Of a stretch of DNA of 42,785 bases, positions 3,706 to 42,785 are shown in pieces. The translations under genes and the position numbers were made by a program. The notes beneath the pieces are model-generated. The model was not told the DNA's origin, made no database searches, and saw only the letters and a program-made list of their open reading frames with translations. The stretch is from a virus: positions 1 to 42,785 of the IMG/VR virus record IMGVR_UViG_3300003322_000772. The stretch is one strand, 5' to 3'. Positions within the stretch are counted from its first letter, which is position 1; each line of letters begins with the position of its first letter.

Positions 3706-4451
3706 CAGCCCCTCTCATCCAGAGAATTGTCGATGGTGTGGTCAACTGCAGTGCCCTGTGAAGAGGGCAAAGCAGCGGCGCGACGGGCCAAGCGCTCGGC
3801 CAAGTCCTCGAGAGAAGAAGGCTGCGTGGGTGCTGTAGGTGGCTGATTGCCCGTTCCGAGTCCCAAAGCCTTCACGCCGAGGGCTCCGGCCTTGATGATG
3901 AAGTCCTCGGAGGCCTTGCCTTCCTCCAATTTCTTCTGAATGACCATCACGCTTTGGAACAGGAGACCTCGAAGCATGTCATCCATCGTGCCGGCAAAAA
4001 CTGGATTGGTGACTTCACCGCGGCGGAGCTCTAAGGCTTCCTGAAAGTTGCGACTGACCAGGACTCCGGCAAACCATGATTCCTTGTAGCCGAAGTACGC
4101 CGCGAGCTGCTTCGGAGTGTAGCGCGGATTGTCGATCATCAGCTGCACCATAGCTTCGGCCGTGTAGCGCGGGAAGACTTTTGGTTTCAGAAGATCACTG
4201 CGAGGTACAACAGCCATGCCCAGAGCATTCTCGAGGCTCCCCTCGGCCGTGCGTTCGAGACTGCCATCGGCCAAACCTTCGGAAATGAGGCGGCGCTCGG
4301 CCTGCTCCACTTCGGACTGGGTTCTGACGGTGCTGTCATCGATGGGGAGTCCGGCTTCCTCCATCCGGCTACGCCGAATCAGCTGGGCTGCGGCCTCTTC
4401 CAAAGCCTCCGCATCGTTACTGTCGTGTTCCTGGGTCATGGGCAGCCTCAT
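3705..4451 (-). CDS. Terminase small subunit-like protein, long paralogue
   Basis: A 248-residue acidic protein directly upstream of TerL, so a candidate for the DNA-recognition subunit of terminase. The middle has a helix-turn-helix-like stretch around NPRYTPKQLAAYFGYKESW, followed by a helical segment with QSVMVIQKKLEEG. The same pattern occurs in the gene upstream (4448-4810), so the two are tandem paralogues. The N-terminal 100 residues and the Pro/Ser-rich tail are unique to this copy. The ATG at 4451 overlaps the preceding stop as ATGA. A second ATG at 4439 has a GAGG nearer the usual spacing and could be the true start. Which paralogue recognises the packaging site is unknown. Confidence 0.65.
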   Translation of the reverse strand: MRLPMTQEHDSNDAEALEEAAAQLIRRSRMEEAGLPIDDSTVRTQSEVEQAERRLISEGLADGSLERTAEGSLENALGMAVVPRSDLLKPKVFPRYTAEAMVQLMIDNPRYTPKQLAAYFGYKESWFAGVLVSRNFQEALELRRGEVTNPVFAGTMDDMLRGLLFQSVMVIQKKLEEGKASEDFIIKAGALGVKALGLGTGNQPPTAPTQPSSLEDLAERLARRAAALPSSQGTAVDHTIDNSLDERG

Positions 4452-4810
4452 TTCTTCGGAGGCTCGATGACACCGAGGGAACGCTGGACCATCTGCAACG
4501 AAGCGAGGGCCAGGTCAGCAGAAGCCTCGGGACTGTCGAGCTGCCGCTGGATGGTGCTGATGGATTGCAGCGCCACGGTCTCGAGCTTAGCTTTGAGTCG
4601 TTGCCGGATGATGGGGTCCATCACTTCCTGACGGCGCTGAGCGAGGCGGGCTTGGAAAGCGTCGCTCTTGATGATTCGGCTCATCCACGAGGGCTTATAC
4701 CCGAATTGCTGACACAGTTCCGCTTGTGTGACCAGGGGATTGGCGATCATCTCGTTGATAATCATCTCGTGGACGTGGCTGACCTTCTCGATACCTTGAT
4801 TTCCGGGCAT
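4448..4810 (-). CDS. Terminase small subunit-like protein, short paralogue
   Basis: A 120-residue protein, first gene of the leftward packaging cluster. I chose the ATG at 4810 because a perfect AAAGGAG lies 6 bases before it; an in-frame ATG at 4873 has no comparable site. Residues around NPLVTQAELCQQFGYKPSW form a helix-turn-helix-like unit. It is followed by RRQEVMDP and QSISTIQRQL, which match RRGEVTNP and QSVMVIQKKL of the next gene. The length fits a TerS subunit. It could supply the ring that binds the packaging site, or act with its longer paralogue as a mixed complex. The family assignment rests mainly on gene order. Confidence 0.6.
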   Translation of the reverse strand: MPGNQGIEKVSHVHEMIINEMIANPLVTQAELCQQFGYKPSWMSRIIKSDAFQARLAQRRQEVMDPIIRQRLKAKLETVALQSISTIQRQLDSPEASADLALASLQMVQRSLGVIEPPKK

Positions 4811-5009: not shown

Positions 5010-5044
5010 GTAACAGTTAACAATTAACTATTAACAGTTAAGAA
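5010..5044. repeat. Heptamer array 1 (TTARNWR-type)
   Basis: Five tandem 7-bp units in phase, the first degenerate (GTAACAG), then units such as TTAACAA, TTAACTA and TTAACAG. First of four arrays in the noncoding region. Possible iterons for an initiator or a DNA-unwinding element. Confidence 0.75.
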
Positions 5045-5296: not shown

Positions 5297-5344
5297 TTAG
5301 CTGTTAATAGTTAGCTGTTAACTGTTAGTATTAACTGTTAAAGG
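5297..5344. repeat. Heptamer array 2
   Basis: Seven tandem units of TTARNWG type, one shortened to 6 bp. Examples are TTAGCTG, TTAATAG and TTAACTG. It begins exactly 64 bp before the palindrome at 5361. Confidence 0.8.
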
Positions 5345-5360: not shown

Positions 5361-5402
5361 GTTCTGTGCGCGCGTTACTCCGTCGTAATGTGCGCACAGA
5401 AC
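5361..5402. promoter_or_regulatory. 42-bp palindrome, copy 2 (origin-like region)
   Basis: Arms 5361-5378 and 5385-5402 are nearly perfect, both beginning GTTCTGTGCGC, with a TCCGTC centre. This copy is not just upstream of a gene but follows heptamer array 2, which hints at a role in replication or long-range control. Confidence 0.85.
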
Positions 5403-5885: not shown

Positions 5886-5927
5886 TTAACAGTTAATAGT
5901 TAATAGTTAGCTGTTAGTAGTTAACTG
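5886..5927. repeat. Heptamer array 4 (six perfect-length units)
   Basis: Six uninterrupted 7-bp units of TTARNWG type fill exactly 42 bp. It begins 64 bp before the palindrome at 5950, reproducing the spacing of array 2 and its palindrome. Confidence 0.85.
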
Positions 5928-5949
5928 TGCCGTTCGGAGGCGCCGGGGG

Positions 5950-5991
5950 GTTGTGTGCGCACATTACTCCATTGTAATGTGCGCATGGAAT
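5950..5991. promoter_or_regulatory. 42-bp palindrome, copy 3 (upstream of early promoter)
   Basis: Arms 5950-5967 and 5974-5991 with a TCCATT centre. It lies 66 bp upstream of the -35 box at 6058, a distance suited to an activator or to DNA looping with copy 2. Function inferred. Confidence 0.85.
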
Positions 5992-6542: not shown

Positions 6543-7118
6543 ATGTCGCAACAAAACGAATCCAAGCGCCCAGTCGCCGCCCTTTCCGTCGAGATCGAAG
6601 ACGGCACCCTCGCCATCAACTTCGCCCACGGCCACGCCCTCACGCTCCGCCTCGAAGACCTGAGCCCCGCCATCCGTCATGCCGCGATGATGCACGGTCT
6701 CAAGCAGAAACTCGTGGATGCCGCCGCCATCGCTCGCAACCCTGACACGGGCCGTAGCGCCACGCTCGATGACAAGTATGCCGCCGTCAAGGAAGTCTAT
6801 GACCGCATCACCTCGCCCACTGGCACGTGGAACAAGGTCCGCGAGAACGGCGAGGGCTCCAAGGTCAAAGGCGGCATGCTCGTCCGCGCCATGATGAAGC
6901 TGACCGGCAAACCGCACCAAGCCATCGTCGATTACATCAATGGCCTCACCAAAGAAGAGGTTGCCGCGCTCCGCAAAAACCCGCGCGTCATGGACGCCAT
7001 TGCCGCCCTACAAGCTGAGGAAGTCAAAACGGGCGGCATCAATAGCGACGCCCTGCTCGACGGCATCATGGGGGGCGTCACGTCCGACGAGCCGAAAGCC
7101 GAGACCAAAGCCGAGTAA
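6543..7118 (+). CDS. Early protein with paralogue at 11867 and C-terminal INSDALLD tail
   Basis: 191 residues; the ATG at 6543 is set by a perfect GGAGG 7 bases upstream. The N-terminal third is beta-rich, then a helical core with HGLKQKLVDAAA and VRAMMKLTGK. The same layout recurs in the 197-residue product of 11867-12460 (HGAEQKLGDEIA, VKALMELSGK), so the two are diverged paralogues. The C-terminal part carries INSDALLDGIMGG before a charged KAE tail. That motif reappears at the ends of the 11867 and 15976 products. No enzyme motif is visible. Homologues of this type are, as far as I recall, uncharacterised phage proteins; a DNA- or replisome-binding role is only a guess. Confidence 0.8.
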   Translation: MSQQNESKRPVAALSVEIEDGTLAINFAHGHALTLRLEDLSPAIRHAAMMHGLKQKLVDAAAIARNPDTGRSATLDDKYAAVKEVYDRITSPTGTWNKVRENGEGSKVKGGMLVRAMMKLTGKPHQAIVDYINGLTKEEVAALRKNPRVMDAIAALQAEEVKTGGINSDALLDGIMGGVTSDEPKAETKAE

Positions 7119-8571: not shown

Positions 8572-8613
8572 ATTTCATGCGCACATTACTCCGTTGTAAT
8601 ACGCGCACAAAAC
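8572..8613. promoter_or_regulatory. 42-bp palindrome, copy 4
   Basis: Arms 8572-8589 and 8596-8613, centre TCCGTT. It ends 31 bp before the next start codon and lies downstream of a terminator, so transcription probably restarts here. In plus-strand RNA its arms would have A-C mismatches, which argues against an RNA hairpin function. Confidence 0.85.
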
Positions 8614-11866: not shown

Positions 11867-12460
11867 ATGAACGCAATCGCTGAAGCCGAAGTCAAAACCA
11901 AAGCCCCCGCAACCAAGCTGTCCGTGACGATGGACGACGGCAAAGTCGTCGAATTCACCGGCAAGAAAAAGCTGATCAAGACGGCAACCATCGAAGATGA
12001 CGGTTCGGTCGTCGTGCGCCTGGACTTCGTCAACGGCGAGTATCGCGTTTTCCGTCTGCCAGCCGACCTGATGTCGCGTTTCGCTGCACATGGCGCCGAG
12101 CAGAAGCTGGGCGACGAGATCGCAGGCATCGATGATGTCGAGGATTGCGTCGCCGCTATGGACGAACTCCTGGTGCGCCTGGAACAGGGCGAATGGAACA
12201 TCAAGCGCGAATCCAACGGCATGGCCGGTGCCTCGGTCCTCGTGAAGGCCCTGATGGAACTGTCGGGCAAGTCCAAGCCGGAGATCACCACCTTCCTGGC
12301 CGCCAAGACCCACGCCGAAAAGCTGGCGCTGCGCAGCAATGCCAAGCTGAAGCCGATCATCGATCGTCTGGAAGCTGAGAAGGCCGCGCGCAGCAAGAAG
12401 AAGGCGCCGACCATCGACAGCGACGCAATGCTGGACAGCCTGGAAGCCGCCGCAGCGTAA
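11867..12460 (+). CDS. Early protein, paralogue of the 6543 product, with IDSDAMLD tail
   Basis: 197 residues. Start at 11867 from GGGAG 8 bases upstream; the open frame further upstream crosses the structured leader and is Arg/His-rich nonsense. Beta-rich N-terminus, then HGAEQKLGDEIA, GEWNIKRESNG and VKALMELSGKSK, matching HGLKQKLVDAAA, GTWNKVRENG and VRAMMKLTGKPH of 6543-7118. It ends TIDSDAMLDSLEAAAA. The gene has its own promoter and a strong terminator, so it is an independent and probably highly expressed unit. Role unknown; nucleic-acid binding is plausible but not shown. Confidence 0.8.
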   Translation: MNAIAEAEVKTKAPATKLSVTMDDGKVVEFTGKKKLIKTATIEDDGSVVVRLDFVNGEYRVFRLPADLMSRFAAHGAEQKLGDEIAGIDDVEDCVAAMDELLVRLEQGEWNIKRESNGMAGASVLVKALMELSGKSKPEITTFLAAKTHAEKLALRSNAKLKPIIDRLEAEKAARSKKKAPTIDSDAMLDSLEAAAA

Positions 12461-12500: not shown

Positions 12501-12534
12501 TGCAGCTGGGTTTGAGCCTCCACAGCTGCCGAAA

Positions 12535-12573
12535 CCCCCGACAGGGACTAGACTGTCGGGGGTTTTGTTTTTT
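12535..12573 (+). terminator. Strong intrinsic terminator
   Basis: A 10-bp stem, CCCCCGACAG with CTGTCGGGGG (12535-12544 and 12553-12562), followed by TTTTGTTTTTT. It directly abuts palindrome copy 5, so termination and the next regulated start are joined. Confidence 0.92.
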
Positions 12574-12610
12574 GTGCGCGCGTTACTACGCTGTAATGCG
12601 CGCATGGAAT
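12569..12610. promoter_or_regulatory. 42-bp palindrome, copy 5
   Basis: Arms 12569-12586 and 12593-12610, centre TACGCT. Its left arm shares the T-run of the terminator. It lies 108 bp before the next gene. Confidence 0.82.
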
Positions 12611-15592: not shown

Positions 15593-15634
15593 ATTCTATG
15601 CGCACGTTACTCGGTTGTAATGTGCGCACAAAAC
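15593..15634. promoter_or_regulatory. 42-bp palindrome, copy 6
   Basis: Arms 15593-15610 and 15617-15634, centre TCGGTT. It ends 20 bp before the next start codon, leaving room only for the ribosome site. Confidence 0.85.
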
Positions 15635-18773: not shown

Positions 18774-18815
18774 ATTCCATGCGCACATTACTCCCGCGTA
18801 ACGCGCGCATGGAAT
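18774..18815. promoter_or_regulatory. 42-bp palindrome, copy 7
   Basis: Arms 18774-18791 and 18798-18815, centre TCCCGC. It starts 6 bp after the recombinase stop and ends 23 bp before the -35 box of the promoter at 18839, a position suited to an activator or repressor site. Confidence 0.85.
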
Positions 18816-18838: not shown

Positions 18839-18866
18839 TTGACAACTTCCTCGCCGTCCGTATAAT
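18839..18866 (+). promoter_or_regulatory. Consensus sigma70 promoter
   Basis: TTGACA (18839-18844), 16-bp spacer, TATAAT (18861-18866): both hexamers perfect. RNA should start near 18873 and read the ssDNA-binding-like gene. Confidence 0.85.
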
Positions 18867-18954: not shown

Positions 18955-19401
18955 ATGACCTTCGATGCAGACATTTTCCTGAATTCCTCCGTACAAGGCG
19001 CCAACTCGACCAAGGTGATCCCAGTTCCGATGGGTGAGTACACCGGCGTCATCGAAAAGATCGTTCCGCGCCAGTGGCAATCCAAGGACGGCACCCAAAC
19101 CGGCATCAGTCTGGACGTGATGTGGCTCGTGGAAGACCAAGCCGTCAAGGATTTCGTCGGCCGACCCACCGTGACCGTGAAGCAAGGCATCATGCTGGAC
19201 ACCGACAGCAATGGTGCCCTCGACATGTCCAATGGCCGTAACGTGGGCCTGGGCCGCCTCCGTGCCGCCGTCGGCCTCAACGACCCGGACCGTCCGTTCT
19301 CCTTCCATCAGCTGCCGGGCCAGATGGCCAAGATCACCGTCAGCCATCGCATCGTCGGTGAAGACACGTACGCCGAAGTGAAGACCGTCTCCCGCGTCTA
19401 A
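18955..19401 (+). CDS. Putative ssDNA-binding protein (DUF669-like)
   Basis: 148 residues behind a perfect consensus promoter, so probably abundant. The sequence is beta-rich (IPVPMGEYTGVIEKIVPRQW, TGISLDVMWLVED, KITVSHRIVGEDTYAEVKTV) in the style of an OB-fold. VPMGEYTGVIE matches the 'P-x-GEY' start of the DUF669 group often placed beside Sak4 or annealing proteins. High expression, size and neighbours support an SSB role; no direct motif proves it. The acidic tail typical of bacterial SSB is absent. Confidence 0.6.
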   Translation: MTFDADIFLNSSVQGANSTKVIPVPMGEYTGVIEKIVPRQWQSKDGTQTGISLDVMWLVEDQAVKDFVGRPTVTVKQGIMLDTDSNGALDMSNGRNVGLGRLRAAVGLNDPDRPFSFHQLPGQMAKITVSHRIVGEDTYAEVKTVSRV

Positions 19402-19625: not shown

Positions 19626-21008
19626 ATGCAACTCGTAAAACGCAATGAAATCGTCATCCCATCTGATCGTCAGCGCACCGAATTCGACCCCGAATTTATC
19701 CAGGAACTCTCCCAAGGCATCCTTCAAAAAGGGCTGTTGCACGCCCCCGTCATGCGCGAGGAAGGGGGTCAGAAGGTCCTCGTTGCCGGGGAAACCCGCC
19801 TCAAGGCCATCGACAATCTGTGGATGCTCGGCGGCACGCTACGCTACAACGGCCAAGCTGTACCCGAAGGCATGGTCCCATTCGTGACCCTCGGCCAGCT
19901 TTCCGAACTCGAAGCCGAGGAAGCCGAGCTCGAAGAAAACGTGCGCCGCCGCAATCTCACCTGGAAGGAAGAGAGCCAGGCCCTCGCAAAACTCCACCGC
20001 ATCCGCTCGCAACGCGCCCAGGCCGAAGGTCGCGTTCACACCGTGGCAGACACGGCCGTTGAAGTGAAAGGACGTAGCGACGGGTCATATCAGGAAGCTG
20101 TGCGCAAGAGCCTCATCGTTTCGAAATTCGTTGACAATCCCGAAGTTGCAAAGGCCAAGAGCGTCGAGGAAGCCTTCAAGATCGTCAAAAAGCAAGAGGC
20201 TCAAGCCAAGCACATAGAACTGGCCAAAACCGTCGGCGCCACCTTCACGGCTTCCATTCACGAAGTCTACAACACTGACTGTTTGACGTGGATGGCGCAG
20301 TGCCCAGAAGGTACATTTGATGTCATTCTCACCGATCCCCCGTACGGTATGGGTGCCGATTCCTTCGGTGATGGTGGCGGCGGCCGTCTGGCAAACAACG
20401 AACACCACTACAAGGACGACTACGCAAGCTGGAAGTCCCTGATGTCACAGTGGGCCCCTCTCTCCTACAAGGTCGCCAAGCACCAGGCTCATGCCTACGT
20501 CTTCTGCGACATCGACAACTTCCACGAACTGAAGAAGATGATGCAGGAAGCTGGCTGGTACGTATTCCGCACACCATTCGTGTGTACGAAGCCTGGCAGC
20601 GGCCGTGTCCCCCTGCCGTCGGAAGGTCCTCGTCGACAGTATGAAATTTTGCTGTACGCCATCAAGAATCACAAAAACACCACGGCCATCTATCCGGATG
20701 TTCTGACTAGCTATGCCGACGACAACACCACGCACGGTGCTCAGAAGCCTGTCGCCCTGTATGAACAGTTGCTGCTTCGGAGCGTGAAACCAGGCGACGT
20801 GGTGCTCGACAGCTTCGCCGGAAGCGGCACCATCTTCCCATCCGCCCACAAATATCAATGCAAGGCCGTGGGCCTGGAAATGAACCCGGAATACTACGCG
20901 ATGTGCCTCAACCGCATGAAGGAACTAAGCGCCCCGAGCGGCGCCTCGTCCACGACTTCCGTGGACGCGCTGAGCAACGAACTGCAAAGCCTCATGGGGG
21001 GCCGCTAA
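19626..21008 (+). CDS. ParB-like domain fused to a beta-class DNA methyltransferase
   Basis: 460 residues. ATG 19626 has GAGG upstream; a longer frame would begin inside the terminator. Residues 1-200 resemble a ParB/Srx-type N-terminal domain: VLVAGETRLKAI (51-62) fits the GE-x-R motif, followed by helices with EENVRRRNLTWKEE. Residues 210-435 are an amino-methyltransferase with motif IV DPPY (237-240) before the SAM-binding motif I DSFAGSGT (395-402), the beta-class order, modifying adenine N6 or cytosine N4. The tail has SVDALSNELQSLMGG, vaguely like the DSDALLD tails of other early proteins. It probably methylates phage DNA; the target site is unknown. Confidence 0.88.
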   Translation: MQLVKRNEIVIPSDRQRTEFDPEFIQELSQGILQKGLLHAPVMREEGGQKVLVAGETRLKAIDNLWMLGGTLRYNGQAVPEGMVPFVTLGQLSELEAEEAELEENVRRRNLTWKEESQALAKLHRIRSQRAQAEGRVHTVADTAVEVKGRSDGSYQEAVRKSLIVSKFVDNPEVAKAKSVEEAFKIVKKQEAQAKHIELAKTVGATFTASIHEVYNTDCLTWMAQCPEGTFDVILTDPPYGMGADSFGDGGGGRLANNEHHYKDDYASWKSLMSQWAPLSYKVAKHQAHAYVFCDIDNFHELKKMMQEAGWYVFRTPFVCTKPGSGRVPLPSEGPRRQYEILLYAIKNHKNTTAIYPDVLTSYADDNTTHGAQKPVALYEQLLLRSVKPGDVVLDSFAGSGTIFPSAHKYQCKAVGLEMNPEYYAMCLNRMKELSAPSGASSTTSVDALSNELQSLMGGR

Positions 21009-21009
21009 T

Positions 21010-23403
21010 ATGCCCATCCACCCAACAGGCCCCAGCAATGCCCGTATCATGCTCGTTGGAGAATTCCCCCACGAACAAGACCTTTTGAACAGCACCCCCT
21101 TCGTCGGTGGCCCTGGCTACGAGCTTCGCAAGATGCTTCAGGAAGTCGGAGTCTATGCTGCGGACTGCTACATCACAATGGTGATGAAGGACCGCATCCC
21201 GCAATCCCGTGTCGAAGCTGTTGTCGCAACCAAGAAAAAGGACATCACAAATGCTCATGTGCTCCACGCAGGTAAATATGTACTCCCAGCTGTGGTGGCT
21301 GGAGTGGAACAACTCCGTGCAGAGGTGGAACGAGTTCGCCCTCATGTGGTGGTCACCTTTGGCAATCTGGCACTGTGGGCTCTTACTGGGCAATGGGGGG
21401 CGATGAACTGGCGATCCTCCATCATGGAGAGCGCGCTCGTGCCAGGTGTCAAAGTGGTGCCGACCTTCAGCCCGGCCATGGTGATGGTACAGTGGAAGCT
21501 GCGGGGGCTGATGGTTCACGACCTCGGAAGGGCCGTCGCACAGTCTGCGTTCCCGGAAATCCGTCGCCGGGAGTACAAGTTCATCGTACGCCCGACCTTC
21601 GAACAGGCTAAAAGCCAGCTGGAACGGATGATTGAGGTTGCCCAGATCTTCCAACAGGAAAATGATGGCAAACTCATGAAGATGGGCGGCGACATCGAGA
21701 CTCGTGCGGGGCACATCTCCTGTATCGCATTCGCATGGTCCCGCACGGAAGCCATCTGCATTCCTCTGATGACCGTGGACAATCCAGAGGGCTATTGGAC
21801 CCTGGAGGAGGAAGCCGAGCTTGTGCATCTGATCTACCGATTGTGCCAACACATCACAGTCGTGGGTCAGAACTGGAACTACGACGCGCAGTATATCTTC
21901 CGTCACTGGCACTTCATCTGCCCGAGCGTGAAGGACACGATGGTCCAGCAGCATACGTGCTTCTCCAATTTGGAAAAGAACCTTGCATTCCTGTCCTCGA
22001 TGTACCTTGACGATCACCTGTACTGGAAGGATGATCGTACGAACTGGAAGAAGGGCGAGGACGGCGAAGGGGAGATTAACTACTGGACGTACAACTGTAC
22101 GGATGCGGTACGTACCCTGGCTATTGAAGAAGTGCTGGGCAAAGTGGTGACGAAGCTCGGCCTCGACGCTGTTGATGACTTTCAGCAGCGTCTCACCGGT
22201 CGTGTGCTGCGCACGATGAACAAGGGCGTGAGAGTGGACTTGCAGGAACGAGCCCGTCTTGCAATGATTCTCCAAGGTGAAGCTGCAAATCGGCAACAAT
22301 GGATGGCAGACGTTATCGGTCGCGAAATCAACATCCGCTCCCCTGCTCAGATGGCAGAGTTCTTCTACAAGGAAATGGGAATGCGGCCCATCATCGACCG
22401 TAAGACGAAGAGCATCACCACCAACGATGAAGCGCTGCACAAGATCGCAGAACGTGAACCGATTCTGCTACCCATCACTCGTAAGATTTCGGAGTTACGG
22501 TCTCTGGGAGTGTTTCACAGCACCTTCGTCAGTGCCCCTCTCGATGTTGATGGTCGGATGCGCTGCTCGTTCAACGTGTGTGGCACGGAAACCTACCGCT
22601 TTGCGTCCAGCAAAAATGCATTCGGGACCGGTGCTAACCTTCAGAACATCCCGAAGGGAGGAGAAACGGAAGATTCGGGCTTGGAGCTGCCAAACATTCG
22701 TGAACTCTACATTCCTGATCCGGGCAAGGTCATCTTTGACATTGACCTCGACAGTGCCGACCTCCGAATCGTTACGGCCGAAAGCAATTGCCTTTGGATG
22801 AAAGAGCAGTTCGCCAACAAGAGGAAACCATATGTGGAGGTGATGCGGGAGTACTACAGCAACAGAACCATGACCAAAGACTCTCACCCACGAGAATATG
22901 CGATGTTCAAATCTCTGTGCCACGGAACCAACTACCTCGGCACAGCAGCAGGCATTGCCCCCCGCATTGGTTTGTTGGTGCACGAAACGGAACGTATCCA
23001 GAAATGGTACTTCGGAATGTGCCCTGAAATTCGGGCGTGGCAGGAGGAAATCAAAAAGCAGGTGTCCGGAAGGCGCTGGATTCAAAACGTCTTTGGCTAC
23101 AAGTATCACTTCTTCGATCGCATCGAGGGTACGATCTTCAATCAGGCTATTGCGTGGATTCCGCAGTCGACCGTCGGTTGTCTGATTAACCGGGCGTGGG
23201 AAAGGATCGAAGACAACCTGCCGGAAGTAGACATCCTTCTGCAGGTGCATGATTCATTGGTCGGTCAATTCGATCTCTGTCATGGGGAGTGGATGCTGAA
23301 GCAGATCATCGAGCAGTCCCAGGTTCCTCTCCCGTACGATGAACCTCTCATTATTCCAGTTGGAATTGCTAGTAGTTCCAAGTCCTGGGGAGATTGTCGA
23401 TAG
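21010..23403 (+). CDS. UDG-like domain fused to family A DNA polymerase
   Basis: 797 residues, the replicative polymerase. Residues 10-180 resemble family 4 uracil-DNA glycosylase: MLVGEFPHEQD (14-24), PFVGG and VVVTFGNLAL (113-122). The catalytic blocks look degenerate (GEFPH for GEAPG, TFSPA for HPSP). A 3'-5' exonuclease follows with DIE (228-230), NWNYD (288-292) and YNCTD (361-365). The polymerase has TETYR with NLQNIP (526-547), motif A DLDSADLR (579-586), motif B R628 to K634 with NYLG, and motif C VHD (746-748). It starts one base after the methyltransferase stop. Similar fusions exist in SPO1-type phages. Confidence 0.93.
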   Translation: MPIHPTGPSNARIMLVGEFPHEQDLLNSTPFVGGPGYELRKMLQEVGVYAADCYITMVMKDRIPQSRVEAVVATKKKDITNAHVLHAGKYVLPAVVAGVEQLRAEVERVRPHVVVTFGNLALWALTGQWGAMNWRSSIMESALVPGVKVVPTFSPAMVMVQWKLRGLMVHDLGRAVAQSAFPEIRRREYKFIVRPTFEQAKSQLERMIEVAQIFQQENDGKLMKMGGDIETRAGHISCIAFAWSRTEAICIPLMTVDNPEGYWTLEEEAELVHLIYRLCQHITVVGQNWNYDAQYIFRHWHFICPSVKDTMVQQHTCFSNLEKNLAFLSSMYLDDHLYWKDDRTNWKKGEDGEGEINYWTYNCTDAVRTLAIEEVLGKVVTKLGLDAVDDFQQRLTGRVLRTMNKGVRVDLQERARLAMILQGEAANRQQWMADVIGREINIRSPAQMAEFFYKEMGMRPIIDRKTKSITTNDEALHKIAEREPILLPITRKISELRSLGVFHSTFVSAPLDVDGRMRCSFNVCGTETYRFASSKNAFGTGANLQNIPKGGETEDSGLELPNIRELYIPDPGKVIFDIDLDSADLRIVTAESNCLWMKEQFANKRKPYVEVMREYYSNRTMTKDSHPREYAMFKSLCHGTNYLGTAAGIAPRIGLLVHETERIQKWYFGMCPEIRAWQEEIKKQVSGRRWIQNVFGYKYHFFDRIEGTIFNQAIAWIPQSTVGCLINRAWERIEDNLPEVDILLQVHDSLVGQFDLCHGEWMLKQIIEQSQVPLPYDEPLIIPVGIASSSKSWGDCR

Positions 23404-24416: not shown

Positions 24417-24458
24417 GTTTTGTGCGCGCATTACTCTGTTGTAATGCGCGCACAAAAT
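24417..24458. promoter_or_regulatory. 42-bp palindrome, copy 8
   Basis: Arms 24417-24434 and 24441-24458, centre TCTGTT; the most nearly perfect copy. It separates the DUF1353-like gene from the secreted-protein gene. Confidence 0.87.
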
Positions 24459-31075: not shown

Positions 31076-31117
31076 GTTTTGTGCGCACGTTACAGCGGAG
31101 TAATGTGCGCGTAGAAT
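31076..31117. promoter_or_regulatory. 42-bp palindrome, copy 9
   Basis: Arms 31076-31093 and 31100-31117 with an unusual centre AGCGGA. It ends 36 bp before the ATP-grasp start and just after a terminator in the direction of that gene. Confidence 0.85.
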
Positions 31118-31130
31118 TCGGGACAGGGGG

Positions 31131-31188
31131 AAAAAACGGCCAGGCGCGGGTTGCAACTTCCCTGTGGGCCGTAGGCCCGGCCTGGCCC
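31131..31188 (-). terminator. Branched intrinsic terminator after the ejection genes
   Basis: Read on the minus strand: GGCCAGGC pairs with GCCTGGCC across a loop that contains its own GGGCC-TAC-GGCCC hairpin, and is followed by GTTTTTT. It ends the transcript of the ejection genes before the ATP-grasp gene. Confidence 0.75.
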
Positions 31189-31277: not shown

Positions 31278-31306
31278 TTGACAGAGGGGTGGCAGACCAT
31301 TATAAT
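31278..31306 (+). promoter_or_regulatory. Perfect consensus promoter facing against late transcription
   Basis: TTGACA (31278-31283), 17-bp spacer, TATAAT (31301-31306). All twelve bases match sigma70 consensus at optimal spacing. It points rightward, into the 3' end of the leftward ejection-protein gene, so any transcript would be antisense to it. No gene follows on the plus strand. Confidence 0.75.
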
Positions 31307-31361
31307 AAAACCGGGTTTACGCCCCCGGAGCTGTCGGGCAGGGGGCGGAGGGAGTGGGGGC

Positions 31362-33197
31362 TTACTCTTCCTCTTCTTCAGGACGTCGCCGCCCGGCAGC
31401 CTGGCCGGCGCTGATGCCGCCTTGCCGTGCCATCGCCATCATAAGCATCTGCTGCAGCTGCTGCGAGGCTCTCATCTTCAGCCCCTTGTCGTTCGTCCTC
31501 TTGACTGCCTCGGCCCCGATGCGCAGCTGCTTCAGATCGGCGGGATCGACCAGCTTAGCGTTCACGAGGACCTTCTGGAGACGCTCGAATTCCCCTGCGA
31601 TATCCTTCGGTGGCGTGTTCGCAAGGTGCTTGGCGACAGCACCCTGGATGAAGGGCAGTCCTTGCGGATCACGTGCGAGGCTCTTAGACATCTTCTGGAA
31701 CTCAGACGCCGAGCCGTAACCATACAGGAAGTAGGGCAGCTCATCCTTTGCCTTGGCCAGCTTCTCTGCACTGTAAGCATTTCGGTACTTGGCTTCGATA
31801 TCACCCAGGCCGATGCGGCTGGTATACTGGTTGAAGGCGTCACGCAAAGCCCCACGAATCTCCGTGGCCGTGGCAGAATCCACAGCAGCCGCGCCCGTGG
31901 CGGGCTTGCCTTCCAGTTGTTTGCCCCACTCACGAATTCTGTTGTCCACGGTCTCGGCATACTTGGCCCGCACGGCCGGATTCTTGAGCCGGTCCGCGGT
32001 CAGTGACTTCATCAGGTTCTGATAGTCGGCATTGCTAATGTTGCCGAGTTGGACTTCCGTTACCAGTTTCTTTCTGAACTCGGCGAATTCTGGTGTGGTG
32101 CTGAAGGTTTGACCTTGCTTTACAGCGTCTGTCACACCCTGAAACATGCGCTCACGGTAAATCTGGCTCGCTGGCTTGATCATCTGCGTGATGCGTTCCA
32201 TGTCCTCAGCCTGCTTGCGGGCAGCGGCTCCCTTTTCCTGGGCCTCCTTTTTGCCACGAGCGAAGGACTCTGGCAGGGCGCCCTCTGGGGCCGGCAGAGC
32301 TGGACGTTCGCCAGGCGACGGAGGAGTGCCACCAGGCCCACGGGGAACGATGCCCCGCTCCGGACTCAGCGGGGTCATCTCACCCGTGCTGGTCTCCCAC
32401 GGCGGACGTACACCTTGCTTAATACCATTCAGAGAAGGATCAGCTTTGCGAAGTGCTTCTTGCGTTGCGATTCGATTATCGCTGCCTACGAGATGATCGA
32501 CGTACCAGTCATCCGAACCGCCGAAGAGTTTCTGTTGCATCTTCTTCGCAGCAGCTTCATTAAGCTCGCGATTAGGGGAGAAGATGCCGCTGAAAGCCCG
32601 GCTCACACCAGGCACGTTGCCATAGGCAATGTTACTGACAAAGTGAAGCATCTTCGATGCTGTCTTGGTAAGGAAGGAGGCGGCAGTTTCGCCGGCCCCG
32701 CCAGCGGCAATCCCGGCACCGAAGGTTACTGCCTCCGGCGCACCCATTGCTTTACCGGCTTCATCCACGAGACCCATGGCAGCACCACCGCCAGCTCCAC
32801 GGATCATACGCTCTCGCAGAGGTAGAGCCGACATGGCCTCACCAGCGCCTTCGGCAAAGCGGCCGATGGGGCCAGGAATGACCTTCCCTGCCGCTTTCAG
32901 AACGCCCGGCAACGCGGCACCTGCAGCAGCGCCAGCCACAGCTCCGCCGCCCATGGCACCAGCAACTTCTTTGGGGGCTACAACCTCCGGCTCACGAGGC
33001 TTGAACCAATCCGCCACAGTTCGTGCAGCCCCACTCGCAGCATCCACGTCAACGGGAGTTGCCCCTTCCGTCGGGGCATAGCCCATTCCTTGCGAGCGAA
33101 TGTAATCTGCCAGCTTCTGGGCACTTTTGGTGTCCCCGTTGGCGTGGGCTTGCCGCAGTGCATCATAAGCGGCGGATAGGTCTTTGGCTTCGGCCAT
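31362..33197 (-). CDS. Large ejection (internal virion) protein
   Basis: 611 residues, AAAGGAACAAATC upstream of the ATG. It begins with a helical unit (LSAAYDALRQAHANGDTKSA, then QKLADYIRSQGMGY) typical of phage DNA-transfer proteins. Residues about 75-175 are Gly/Ala-rich hydrophobic stretches (VAGAMGGGAVAGAAAGAALPG, shortened here) that could insert into membrane. The rest is charged and helical with Gln-rich parts and ends in EEEEE. Third of three ejection-type genes in a row, so it is probably delivered from the capsid to form the DNA conduit. No enzymatic motif (such as lytic transglycosylase) is visible. Confidence 0.7.
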   Translation of the reverse strand: MAEAKDLSAAYDALRQAHANGDTKSAQKLADYIRSQGMGYAPTEGATPVDVDAASGAARTVADWFKPREPEVVAPKEVAGAMGGGAVAGAAAGAALPGVLKAAGKVIPGPIGRFAEGAGEAMSALPLRERMIRGAGGGAAMGLVDEAGKAMGAPEAVTFGAGIAAGGAGETAASFLTKTASKMLHFVSNIAYGNVPGVSRAFSGIFSPNRELNEAAAKKMQQKLFGGSDDWYVDHLVGSDNRIATQEALRKADPSLNGIKQGVRPPWETSTGEMTPLSPERGIVPRGPGGTPPSPGERPALPAPEGALPESFARGKKEAQEKGAAARKQAEDMERITQMIKPASQIYRERMFQGVTDAVKQGQTFSTTPEFAEFRKKLVTEVQLGNISNADYQNLMKSLTADRLKNPAVRAKYAETVDNRIREWGKQLEGKPATGAAAVDSATATEIRGALRDAFNQYTSRIGLGDIEAKYRNAYSAEKLAKAKDELPYFLYGYGSASEFQKMSKSLARDPQGLPFIQGAVAKHLANTPPKDIAGEFERLQKVLVNAKLVDPADLKQLRIGAEAVKRTNDKGLKMRASQQLQQMLMMAMARQGGISAGQAAGRRRPEEEEE

Positions 33198-34631: not shown

Positions 34632-35222
34632 TTAGAAGATGGGACCGGCCGAATACGATGCGTTGTCAACAGGGGGTGACATCCAGTCTTTGAGCCAGCC
34701 ACCTACTTGGCCGGCGATGCCTTCACCCATCTGCTGGCCAGCGGCCGTTGCCCCGGCGAGGTTGCTCTGGATGAGGCCGGCAGCAGTTGCTGGGGAGCCA
34801 ATCTCGGCACCCGAAAGCAAGGCCAGTCTCTGGAACTGATTGCCGTATTCGGTCGACGCCAGATTCTGGCCATAAGACATCAACTCTGCAAGGCGGTTAC
34901 CGCTGTTCAGCATTCCGCTCGCCGCTGCACCACGATTGACAGCTTCCAGACCCTGGTCAAATCGAAACTTGTAAGAGGGGTCCGTCGGAGTGAAATTGCC
35001 CTGCATCAGCTGCTGCAAGGACTGCTGATACTGGCCGCGTTGTGCAGCAAAGGGATCGGCGGCGCCAACTGCGGAGCCGGGAGTGCCAGCGCCACCCGAG
35101 CCCGCTCCTCCACCACCAAGGGCACCGCCAAGCACACCGCCAATGAGACCCCCAACAGGGCCACCGAGGGCCGACCCCGCCGCGGAAAGGACTGGTTTGA
35201 GAAGTCCCGACAAGAAGCCCAT
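34632..35222 (-). CDS. Small ejection (internal virion) protein
   Basis: 196 residues; AAGGA 7 bases before ATG 35222. The N-terminal 50 residues are Gly/Ala/Leu-rich and hydrophobic (PVGGLIGGVLGGALGGGG). Then DPSYKFRFDQGLEAVNRGAA, SGMLNSGNRLAEL and YGQNLASTEYGNQF form a conserved pattern I recognise from many podovirus DNA-ejection proteins. First of three ejection genes; its own palindrome (copy 10) lies 24 bp upstream. Confidence 0.78.
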   Translation of the reverse strand: MGFLSGLLKPVLSAAGSALGGPVGGLIGGVLGGALGGGGAGSGGAGTPGSAVGAADPFAAQRGQYQQSLQQLMQGNFTPTDPSYKFRFDQGLEAVNRGAAASGMLNSGNRLAELMSYGQNLASTEYGNQFQRLALLSGAEIGSPATAAGLIQSNLAGATAAGQQMGEGIAGQVGGWLKDWMSPPVDNASYSAGPIF

Positions 35223-35246: not shown

Positions 35247-35288
35247 ATTCCACGCGCACATTACTCCATTGTAATGTGCGCACAAAAC
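35247..35288. promoter_or_regulatory. 42-bp palindrome, copy 10
   Basis: Arms 35247-35264 and 35271-35288, centre TCCATT. It sits between the gp10-like stop and the first ejection gene. Confidence 0.86.
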
Positions 35289-42115: not shown

Positions 42116-42157
42116 ATTGTATGCGCGCATTACTCCATTGTAACGCGCGCACAGAAT
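42116..42157. promoter_or_regulatory. 42-bp palindrome, copy 11
   Basis: Arms 42116-42133 and 42140-42157, centre TCCATT. It lies between the GroES-like stop and the scaffold start and so precedes the capsid gene block. Confidence 0.86.
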
Positions 42158-42158
42158 A

Positions 42159-42548
42159 CTATTCCTGCGGTACCAGCGGAGTGATGATATCCAGGTCATT
42201 GACGAAGCGATAGGTCTTGCCGTCAACGGGGCTCACATGGAACTTACCAGTGTACTCCCCGATGAGAACCTTATCCCCCACGTCGCAGAAATCAGTGGAC
42301 TTGTCATTCCAGGCATCATGACCGATTTCGAGCACGGTGGCCCAGACGCACTTGCTGCGGTCCTGCTCAATGGTTTTCGTGGTGAGAACGATGCCGCTTT
42401 CGGTCGTGGTCTCCGTGGGCGCCGGTTCCAGTAACAGCCGATGACCGGTCGCACGGAAGCCGCTCTTGTTCGTTGCCATCGGACCTTTGCGAGCGCGCCA
42501 GCCCTCCGTCCGCATCCACATCTTCGTTTCTTGTCCTTGCTCTGCCAT
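42159..42548 (-). CDS. GroES-like cochaperonin
   Basis: 129 residues; perfect GGAGG 6 bases before ATG 42548. Residues 30-127 follow the Cpn10 pattern: ATGHRLLLEPAP, a mobile-loop-like TTTESGIVLTTK (47-58; GIVL is the GroEL-contact tripeptide region), KCVWATVLEIG, CDVGDKVLIGEYTGKF, and YRFVNDLDIITPL at the end. It probably caps host GroEL to enlarge the folding chamber for the capsid protein, as T4 gp31 does. The first 24 residues (Trp/Arg/Lys-rich) are an extension not found in bacterial GroES. No GroEL partner gene is present. Confidence 0.85.
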   Translation of the reverse strand: MAEQGQETKMWMRTEGWRARKGPMATNKSGFRATGHRLLLEPAPTETTTESGIVLTTKTIEQDRSKCVWATVLEIGHDAWNDKSTDFCDVGDKVLIGEYTGKFHVSPVDGKTYRFVNDLDIITPLVPQE

Positions 42549-42549
42549 G

Positions 42550-42783
42550 TTAATCCTCCAGAAAATCGATCAATGCCTTTAAAACTTCCATTCCGCCCAG
42601 CGCCGTTGCATTGGCGAGGGCGGTCTCTTCAATCGTGGGCCTCTGGAATGCCTTTGCAACCCAGTCCTCCTGCCCTTCACGAACCCGCGACTTCAGTTCA
42701 TTGAGGAGCGCCTTCGTTGCCGGGTACGACTTCCATTCCTGGATTTCCTCGGTCGTCAAGCTTTCCAACCTTTGCTTGTCCAT
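42550..42783 (-). CDS. Small helical protein overlapping the portal end
   Basis: 77 residues, MDKQRLESLTTEEIQEWKSY then KALLNELKSRVREGQEDWVA and a short C-terminal ALIDFLED. All-helical and acidic. On a circular map AAGGAAAAGG from the first bases of the window supplies its ribosome site. Its first 28 codons are out of frame with the portal C-terminus, an overlap of about 86 bp. Proteins of this type follow the portal in other phages and may be minor head or assembly factors. Function unknown. Confidence 0.7.
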   Translation of the reverse strand: MDKQRLESLTTEEIQEWKSYPATKALLNELKSRVREGQEDWVAKAFQRPTIEETALANATALGGMEVLKALIDFLED

Positions 42784-42785
42784 TC
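42698..42785 (-). CDS. C-terminal end of the portal gene across the map junction
   Basis: If base 1 is joined to base 42785, the portal frame continues here for 28 codons after the junction codon and stops with TGA at 42698-42700. The encoded tail reads KLDDRGNPGMEVVPGNEGAP near its end, a plausible flexible portal tail rather than frame noise. It overlaps the 77-residue gene in another frame. Confidence 0.75.
   Translation of the reverse strand, partial: NGQAKVGKLDDRGNPGMEVVPGNEGAPQ

Follow-up and report, generated by a model that had tools for sequence, protein, structure and literature searches.

What is the function of a perfect host-type promoter that stands between two leftward late genes of a phage and points rightward, into the end of one of them? 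The question is raised by a 42,785-bp virus record (IMG/VR IMGVR_UViG_3300003322_000772, G000 among our genomes), hereafter the window, meaning the whole stretch of DNA that was analysed. An earlier note had pointed out TTGACA-17-TATAAT on the plus strand between two leftward genes, and the sequence bears this out (Table 1). The site lies inside a 322-bp non-coding gap between an ejection-type gene and a PurD-like gene; at an admitted spacing of 16-18 nt it matches the hexamers at 12 of 12 positions, bearing in mind that the consensus is that of sigma-70 and may not be exactly that of the host. Perfect 12/12 sites with a spacer of 17 are expected 0.0008 (dinucleotide model) to 0.0016 (mononucleotide model) times in the 42.8-kb window. 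Two perfect sites are present, with spacers of 16 and 17; the second (TTGACA-16-TATAAT, 18839-18866) lies just past a copy of the dispersed palindrome discussed below and upstream of a rightward gene (18955-19401).

The gene that the promoter faces, its antisense target, is called "ejection-type" because it comes after 34632-35222, a match to a DNA-ejection family, and because of its position in relatives; the 611-aa gene itself gave no family match. The PurD-like gene on the other side is phage-borne, follows the ejection gene and has at least 572 relatives in IMG/VR. Within the gap, a strong terminator running from 31187 to 31131 would end late transcription past the ejection gene, and a counterpart with a different stem sequence stands at the same place in two relatives, G001 and G002.

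Table 1. Coordinates of the gap, its flanking genes and the dispersed palindrome (positions in the window unless G001 is named).
Feature	Position	Strand	Remarks
Perfect sigma-70 promoter, TTGACA-17-TATAAT	31278..31306	+	TTGACA 31278-31283, spacer 17 nt, TATAAT 31301-31306; sequence match and positional conservation in relatives
Predicted RNA start and non-coding first ~49 nt	31313..31361	+	start inferred 7 nt downstream of the -10
Large ejection-type gene, 611 aa, antisense target	31362..33197	-	homologues in G001, G002 and G005 at 51-53% identity
Weak terminator-like hairpin and TTTTATTATA	31311..31328	-	late strand, overlaps promoter start; -9.3 kcal/mol
Strong intrinsic terminator, leftward (late)	31131..31187	-	GGCCAGGC...GCCTGGCC-G-TTTTTT; folds of -36.2, -36.9 and -32.6 kcal/mol
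Palindrome copy, 42 bp, 1 of 11	31076..31117	.	RTTYYRYGCGCRCRTTAC-N6-GTAA...; 37 bp upstream of the PurD-like start
PurD-like ATP-grasp gene, 438 aa	29723..31039	-	Pfam GARS_A / GARS_C; PDB phosphoribosylamine-glycine ligases, E 7.5e-14
Palindrome copies	2173-2214, 5361-5402, 5950-5991, 8572-8613, 12569-12610, 15593-15634
Palindrome copies (continued)	18774-18815, 24417-24458, 31076-31117, 35247-35288, 42116-42157
Palindromes of the two half-site types, examples from G001	4360-4401, 4733-4774, 22297-22338

Whether such a site is kept by selection can be asked of the relatives. Megablast and tblastn against the phage collection, like single-protein search in IMG/VR, found no close ones; relatives were reached via the palindrome pattern (five IMG/VR contigs) and via alignment searches, which took in 80 capsid loci and 80 PurD-like loci. 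Of the five contigs, G001 (47.5 kb) and G002 (48.4 kb) are mostly syntenic with the window, with capsid proteins ~87-90% identical. Gaps of at least 150 bp (n=43) formed 15 clusters, and one representative per cluster was scored: the best site reached at least 10, at least 11 and exactly 12 of the 12 positions in 9/15, 7/15 and 5/15 clusters, against shuffle means of 1.09, 0.09 and 0.01 clusters, and in 6/15 the representative scored held no site of at least 10/12. When the gaps are aligned, the promoter hexamers line up and the flanks do not. These counts argue strongly for selection of a good sigma-70 promoter in the gap, and a chance origin is ruled out by the expectation (~0.001) together with the conservation in relatives. 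Because the site is both rare by chance and conserved by position, 31278-31306 is very likely to be a functional host sigma-70 promoter; that it would be "early" and "host-driven", as the earlier note had it, we infer from the consensus. A late-strand promoter at the same place was also considered, given that TATAAT reads on both strands, and was rejected: inspection by eye showed no -35 partner, and G002 has not retained the -10.

The site could also be an accident of termination, in which the late-strand T-run TTTTATTATA after a CCGGG...CCCGG hairpin mimics a -10 and TTGACA is there by chance. The window does have such a weak hairpin and T-run (-9.3 kcal/mol), and a similar hairpin is found in L171; G001, G002 and L149, however, lack the hairpin and keep the promoter, the strong terminator occupies another place (31187 to 31131), a TTGACA at the correct spacing would be an improbable coincidence, and 7/15 gaps carry at least 11/12. 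We consider this origin improbable, and a terminator by-product was rejected on the ground that three relatives retain the promoter although the hairpin is missing. The same hairpin had been proposed as a GC structure at the start of the RNA: it is present (31311-31328) but only moderate, the first 75 nt of the plus-strand RNA folding no better than shuffled sequence (z -0.6).

The direction in which this promoter fires differs among relatives. In five divergent phages it points toward the ejection gene and is thus antisense: the window, G001 (TTGACA-18-TATACT), G002 (TTGACA-18-TAAACT), L149 (3300048914_000134, TTGACA-17-TACAAT) and L171 (3300048822_000009, TTGACA-17-TATAAT). It points toward the PurD-like gene in L156, L167, L181, L193, L199, L219, L070 and the L182-L191 group. 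In a tree of the PurD-like protein, a basal grade is made up of the antisense phages with this gene, three in number, and the sense phages fall within one clade (support 100/99), such that the basal grade together with G001 and G002 keep the antisense orientation and one derived clade has reversed it; the ancestral orientation is not certain because the tree was rooted at its midpoint. G001 and G002 lack the PurD-like gene here and nevertheless retain the promoter, which therefore is not there simply to express that gene.

These orientations bear directly on the suggestion that early antisense transcription keeps the late operon off until late, by polymerase collision or by RNA pairing with the ejection message. 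The antisense orientation is kept in five divergent phages; in the window just ~49 nt separate the predicted start at 31313 from the ejection stop codon, beyond which the RNA would be antisense; and precedents exist in PAK_P3 (PMC4933390) and LUZ100 (PMC10134795). However, the promoter is sense-oriented in the derived clade, and in G001, G002 and L149 the ejection gene and the promoter are some 400 nt apart, the non-coding DNA between them including a palindrome copy; silencing of the late operon therefore cannot be the group-wide function. Since the site lies close to where the ejection genes have their distal end, it could shield the promoter-proximal late genes only via long read-through. 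Altogether we find early silencing rather doubtful; that antisense interference may be biologically important in the window phage itself we hold as a tentative possibility.

What, then, could the promoter produce? As the earlier note had said, no plus-strand gene follows it: there is no conserved or convincing plus-strand ORF downstream, and no ORF shared downstream of the promoter was found among relatives. A short plus-strand gene missed by annotation could be sought in a 121-aa GTG ORF starting at 31354 (+), but its sole ribosome site is weak and badly placed, it runs antisense to a conserved gene, and it has no counterpart in G001, G002, L149 or the sense clade. Such a gene is highly improbable and was ruled out for lack of a conserved ORF. 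On the contig of L171, which is the same as that of L123, a possible 107-aa sense ORF with cysteine pairs (L123 19353-19676) holds the antisense promoter and fills the ejection gap; it gave no Pfam match. The product of the promoter is probably non-coding. A known RNA family was ruled out by an Rfam search, in which no family reached the gathering threshold and the sole signal, SorX, was sub-threshold (18.5 vs 46.6 bits) and fell on the late-strand terminator. Nor did a search in the direction of the promoter reveal an intrinsic terminator in the antisense phages. Compared between the orientation classes by blastn, on both strands, the gaps matched essentially in the palindromes alone; the downstream sequences are unalignable across lineages except for G001 with G002 and some short words, and no conserved sequence or fold of the transcribed stretch was found beyond G001/G002.

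Those short words are part of the case for a function to which direction is irrelevant, either an RNA gene (a trans-acting small RNA) or an RNA-primed process (a transcription-activated replication start). The promoter stays in its location while its direction flips, and many relatives have a non-coding gap that measures 300-1100 bp. Downstream of the promoter, 5/12 representatives, from both orientation classes, carry GGCTAGC on the RNA strand and none carries it on the complementary strand, and TGTTGACTC near the start is common to G001 and L184 although their orientations are opposite. The counts of such shared words fall, however, inside the range of the largest shuffle values, making them suggestive only, and neither an Rfam match nor a conserved fold accompanies them. 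This function is doubtful too; since the wider group has not kept one direction, we rate a trans-acting RNA, or transcription that serves replication, about on a par with interference with late messages. A small RNA or another orientation-independent role would fit the group better, local antisense interference being possible in the window phage.

The reading that we prefer, and regard as probable, is that a functional host promoter fires an untranslated RNA from the gap. The host housekeeping RNA polymerase would recognise the promoter without phage factors, and firing in early infection is therefore probable; the untranslated RNA would plausibly be made from that time on. In the window phage and four relatives it would head for the 3' end of the ejection gene and probably enter it, and may there collide or pair with late messages; in the derived clade the same strong promoter faces the other way. 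Against this reading count the 6/15 gap clusters in which no site of at least 10/12 was seen, the poor conservation downstream, the missing terminator and the possible ORF around the promoter of L171. As the trait common to the group is a strong host promoter in the gap, we take the RNA or its transcription to be primary and the antisense effect to be lineage-specific. From the DNA we infer the activity and timing of this promoter and the length and function of its product. The earlier suggestion of an antisense or small RNA thus divides: a host-type promoter for a non-coding RNA is well supported by its conservation, and late-operon silencing does not hold as a group-wide function. A bolder extension would see here an undescribed phage RNA locus, with a strong host promoter that a large uncultured phage group keeps in one gap and has flipped in evolution, a direction-independent RNA acting in trans or in replication priming, and transcription units marked by phage-specific palindromes; we think this unlikely.

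Antisense and small RNAs of lytic phages have mostly been discovered one transcriptome at a time. Lambda OOP and P22 sar are short phage RNAs made from sigma-70 promoters and antisense to an adjoining gene; unlike the RNA predicted here, they act on regulatory genes, stop at intrinsic terminators of a kind not found downstream of the present promoter, and are experimentally proven. Antisense RNAs made early over structural genes of phages have already been described, in PAK_P3 and LUZ100. In the Pseudomonas phage PAK_P3, early antisense RNAs over structural genes are proposed to restrain late genes early; 20 antisense RNAs were detected by RNA-seq, nearly all within genes (PMC4933390). Antisense in the structural region is common to PAK_P3 and the window, where the promoter is antisense to structural genes and its product, with no conserved ORF, probably lacks coding capacity, but the PAK_P3 RNAs were observed, whereas the window has one gap promoter predicted from sequence, with an orientation that varies among relatives. 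For LUZ100, the passages cited here, which also refer to LIT1 and LUZ7, describe a non-coding antisense RNA that lies downstream of the gene for the major capsid protein (PMC10134795). An antisense RNA in a podovirus structural region is the likeness to the window; LUZ100 is T7-like, its RNA was measured by ONT-cappable-seq and involves other genes, and a conserved positional promoter is not reported in those passages. What DNA alone adds in the present case is a strong host promoter in a late region that is kept by selection in divergent phages and flipped at least once, and this flip offers a clean comparison between antisense silencing and the RNA itself.

The gap also holds one copy of a 42-bp palindrome that is arguably more novel than the promoter. 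Eleven copies are present in the window, where none would be expected, and 10-14 per genome in G001 and G002; it has arms of ~18 bp and a 6-bp loop, and nearly all copies are intergenic. Among palindromes between co-directional genes in four genomes, 16/28 have a start codon 20-37 bp downstream. When 22 phages are compared, the inner RTTAC and the outer RTT hardly vary, the invariance of TTAC/GTAA and the 6-bp spacer being partly imposed by the search pattern, and the intervening 9 bp vary, with a mean identity of 6.3/9 within a phage vs 4.2/9 between phages. The pattern had no match in bacterial genomes. In G001 and G002 (L036-L041), half-sites of two types, TGCGC and CCCTC, coexist in one genome, including in chimeric palindromes that combine a half of each type. 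There are more A.C mismatches than G.U pairs on the sense strand (72 vs 37), the reverse of what selection for an mRNA hairpin would leave, which argues against mRNA hairpins (terminators or processing sites), a possibility that we disfavour, and for a DNA-binding site. We tentatively propose that a phage regulator may bind the palindromes where transcription units begin. A terminator, then a palindrome, then a gene follow one another at 31187-31076 and again at 12528-12610, where a palindrome copy stands directly after a strong rightward terminator (12528-12569, AACCCCCGACAG...CTGTCGGGGGTTTTGTTTTTT). Candidate regulators are a pair of paralogues of ~195 aa (6543-7118 and 11867-12460), of unknown family, which are conserved in relatives and encoded near palindromes.

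Dispersed repeats of this kind have counterparts in mycobacteriophages. Cluster O phages carry dispersed palindromes, many copies per genome and often intergenic, and Cluster K phages have, ahead of their start codons, extended start-associated sequences (ESAS), which are imperfect inverted repeats of 17 bp, split by a spacer, whose consensus is genome-specific, with a 13-bp GGGATAGGAGCCC sequence lying between repeat and start codon (PMC4351075, PMC3203893). The palindrome of the window is alike in copy number and in its intergenic or pre-start placement, 16/28 copies standing 20-37 bp before a start codon and ESAS repeats likewise preceding start codons at a fixed place, but it has another sequence, arms of ~18 bp, a 6-bp spacer and TTAC/GTAA ends and belongs to another phage group; it is likened to these elements only and not classed as an ESAS. 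The nearby palindromes offer a second, testable route into the late regulation of this phage group.

Several other features of the window were noted. Repeats of the TTAACTGTTAAT type (5010-5043, 5297-5330 and 5886-5933) lie in a long divergent gap, and similar words occur in the ejection gap of G001/G002. The genes at the contig ends (42550-42783 and 3-2153, the window ends being 1-3 and 42783-42785) adjoin each other in G001, and the window is therefore probably a complete, circularly permuted genome. A ParB-N domain fused to an N6/N4 DNA methyltransferase (19626-21008) is encoded next to the DNA polymerase gene, and a gene for a GroES-like co-chaperonin (42159-42548) lies within the late operon.
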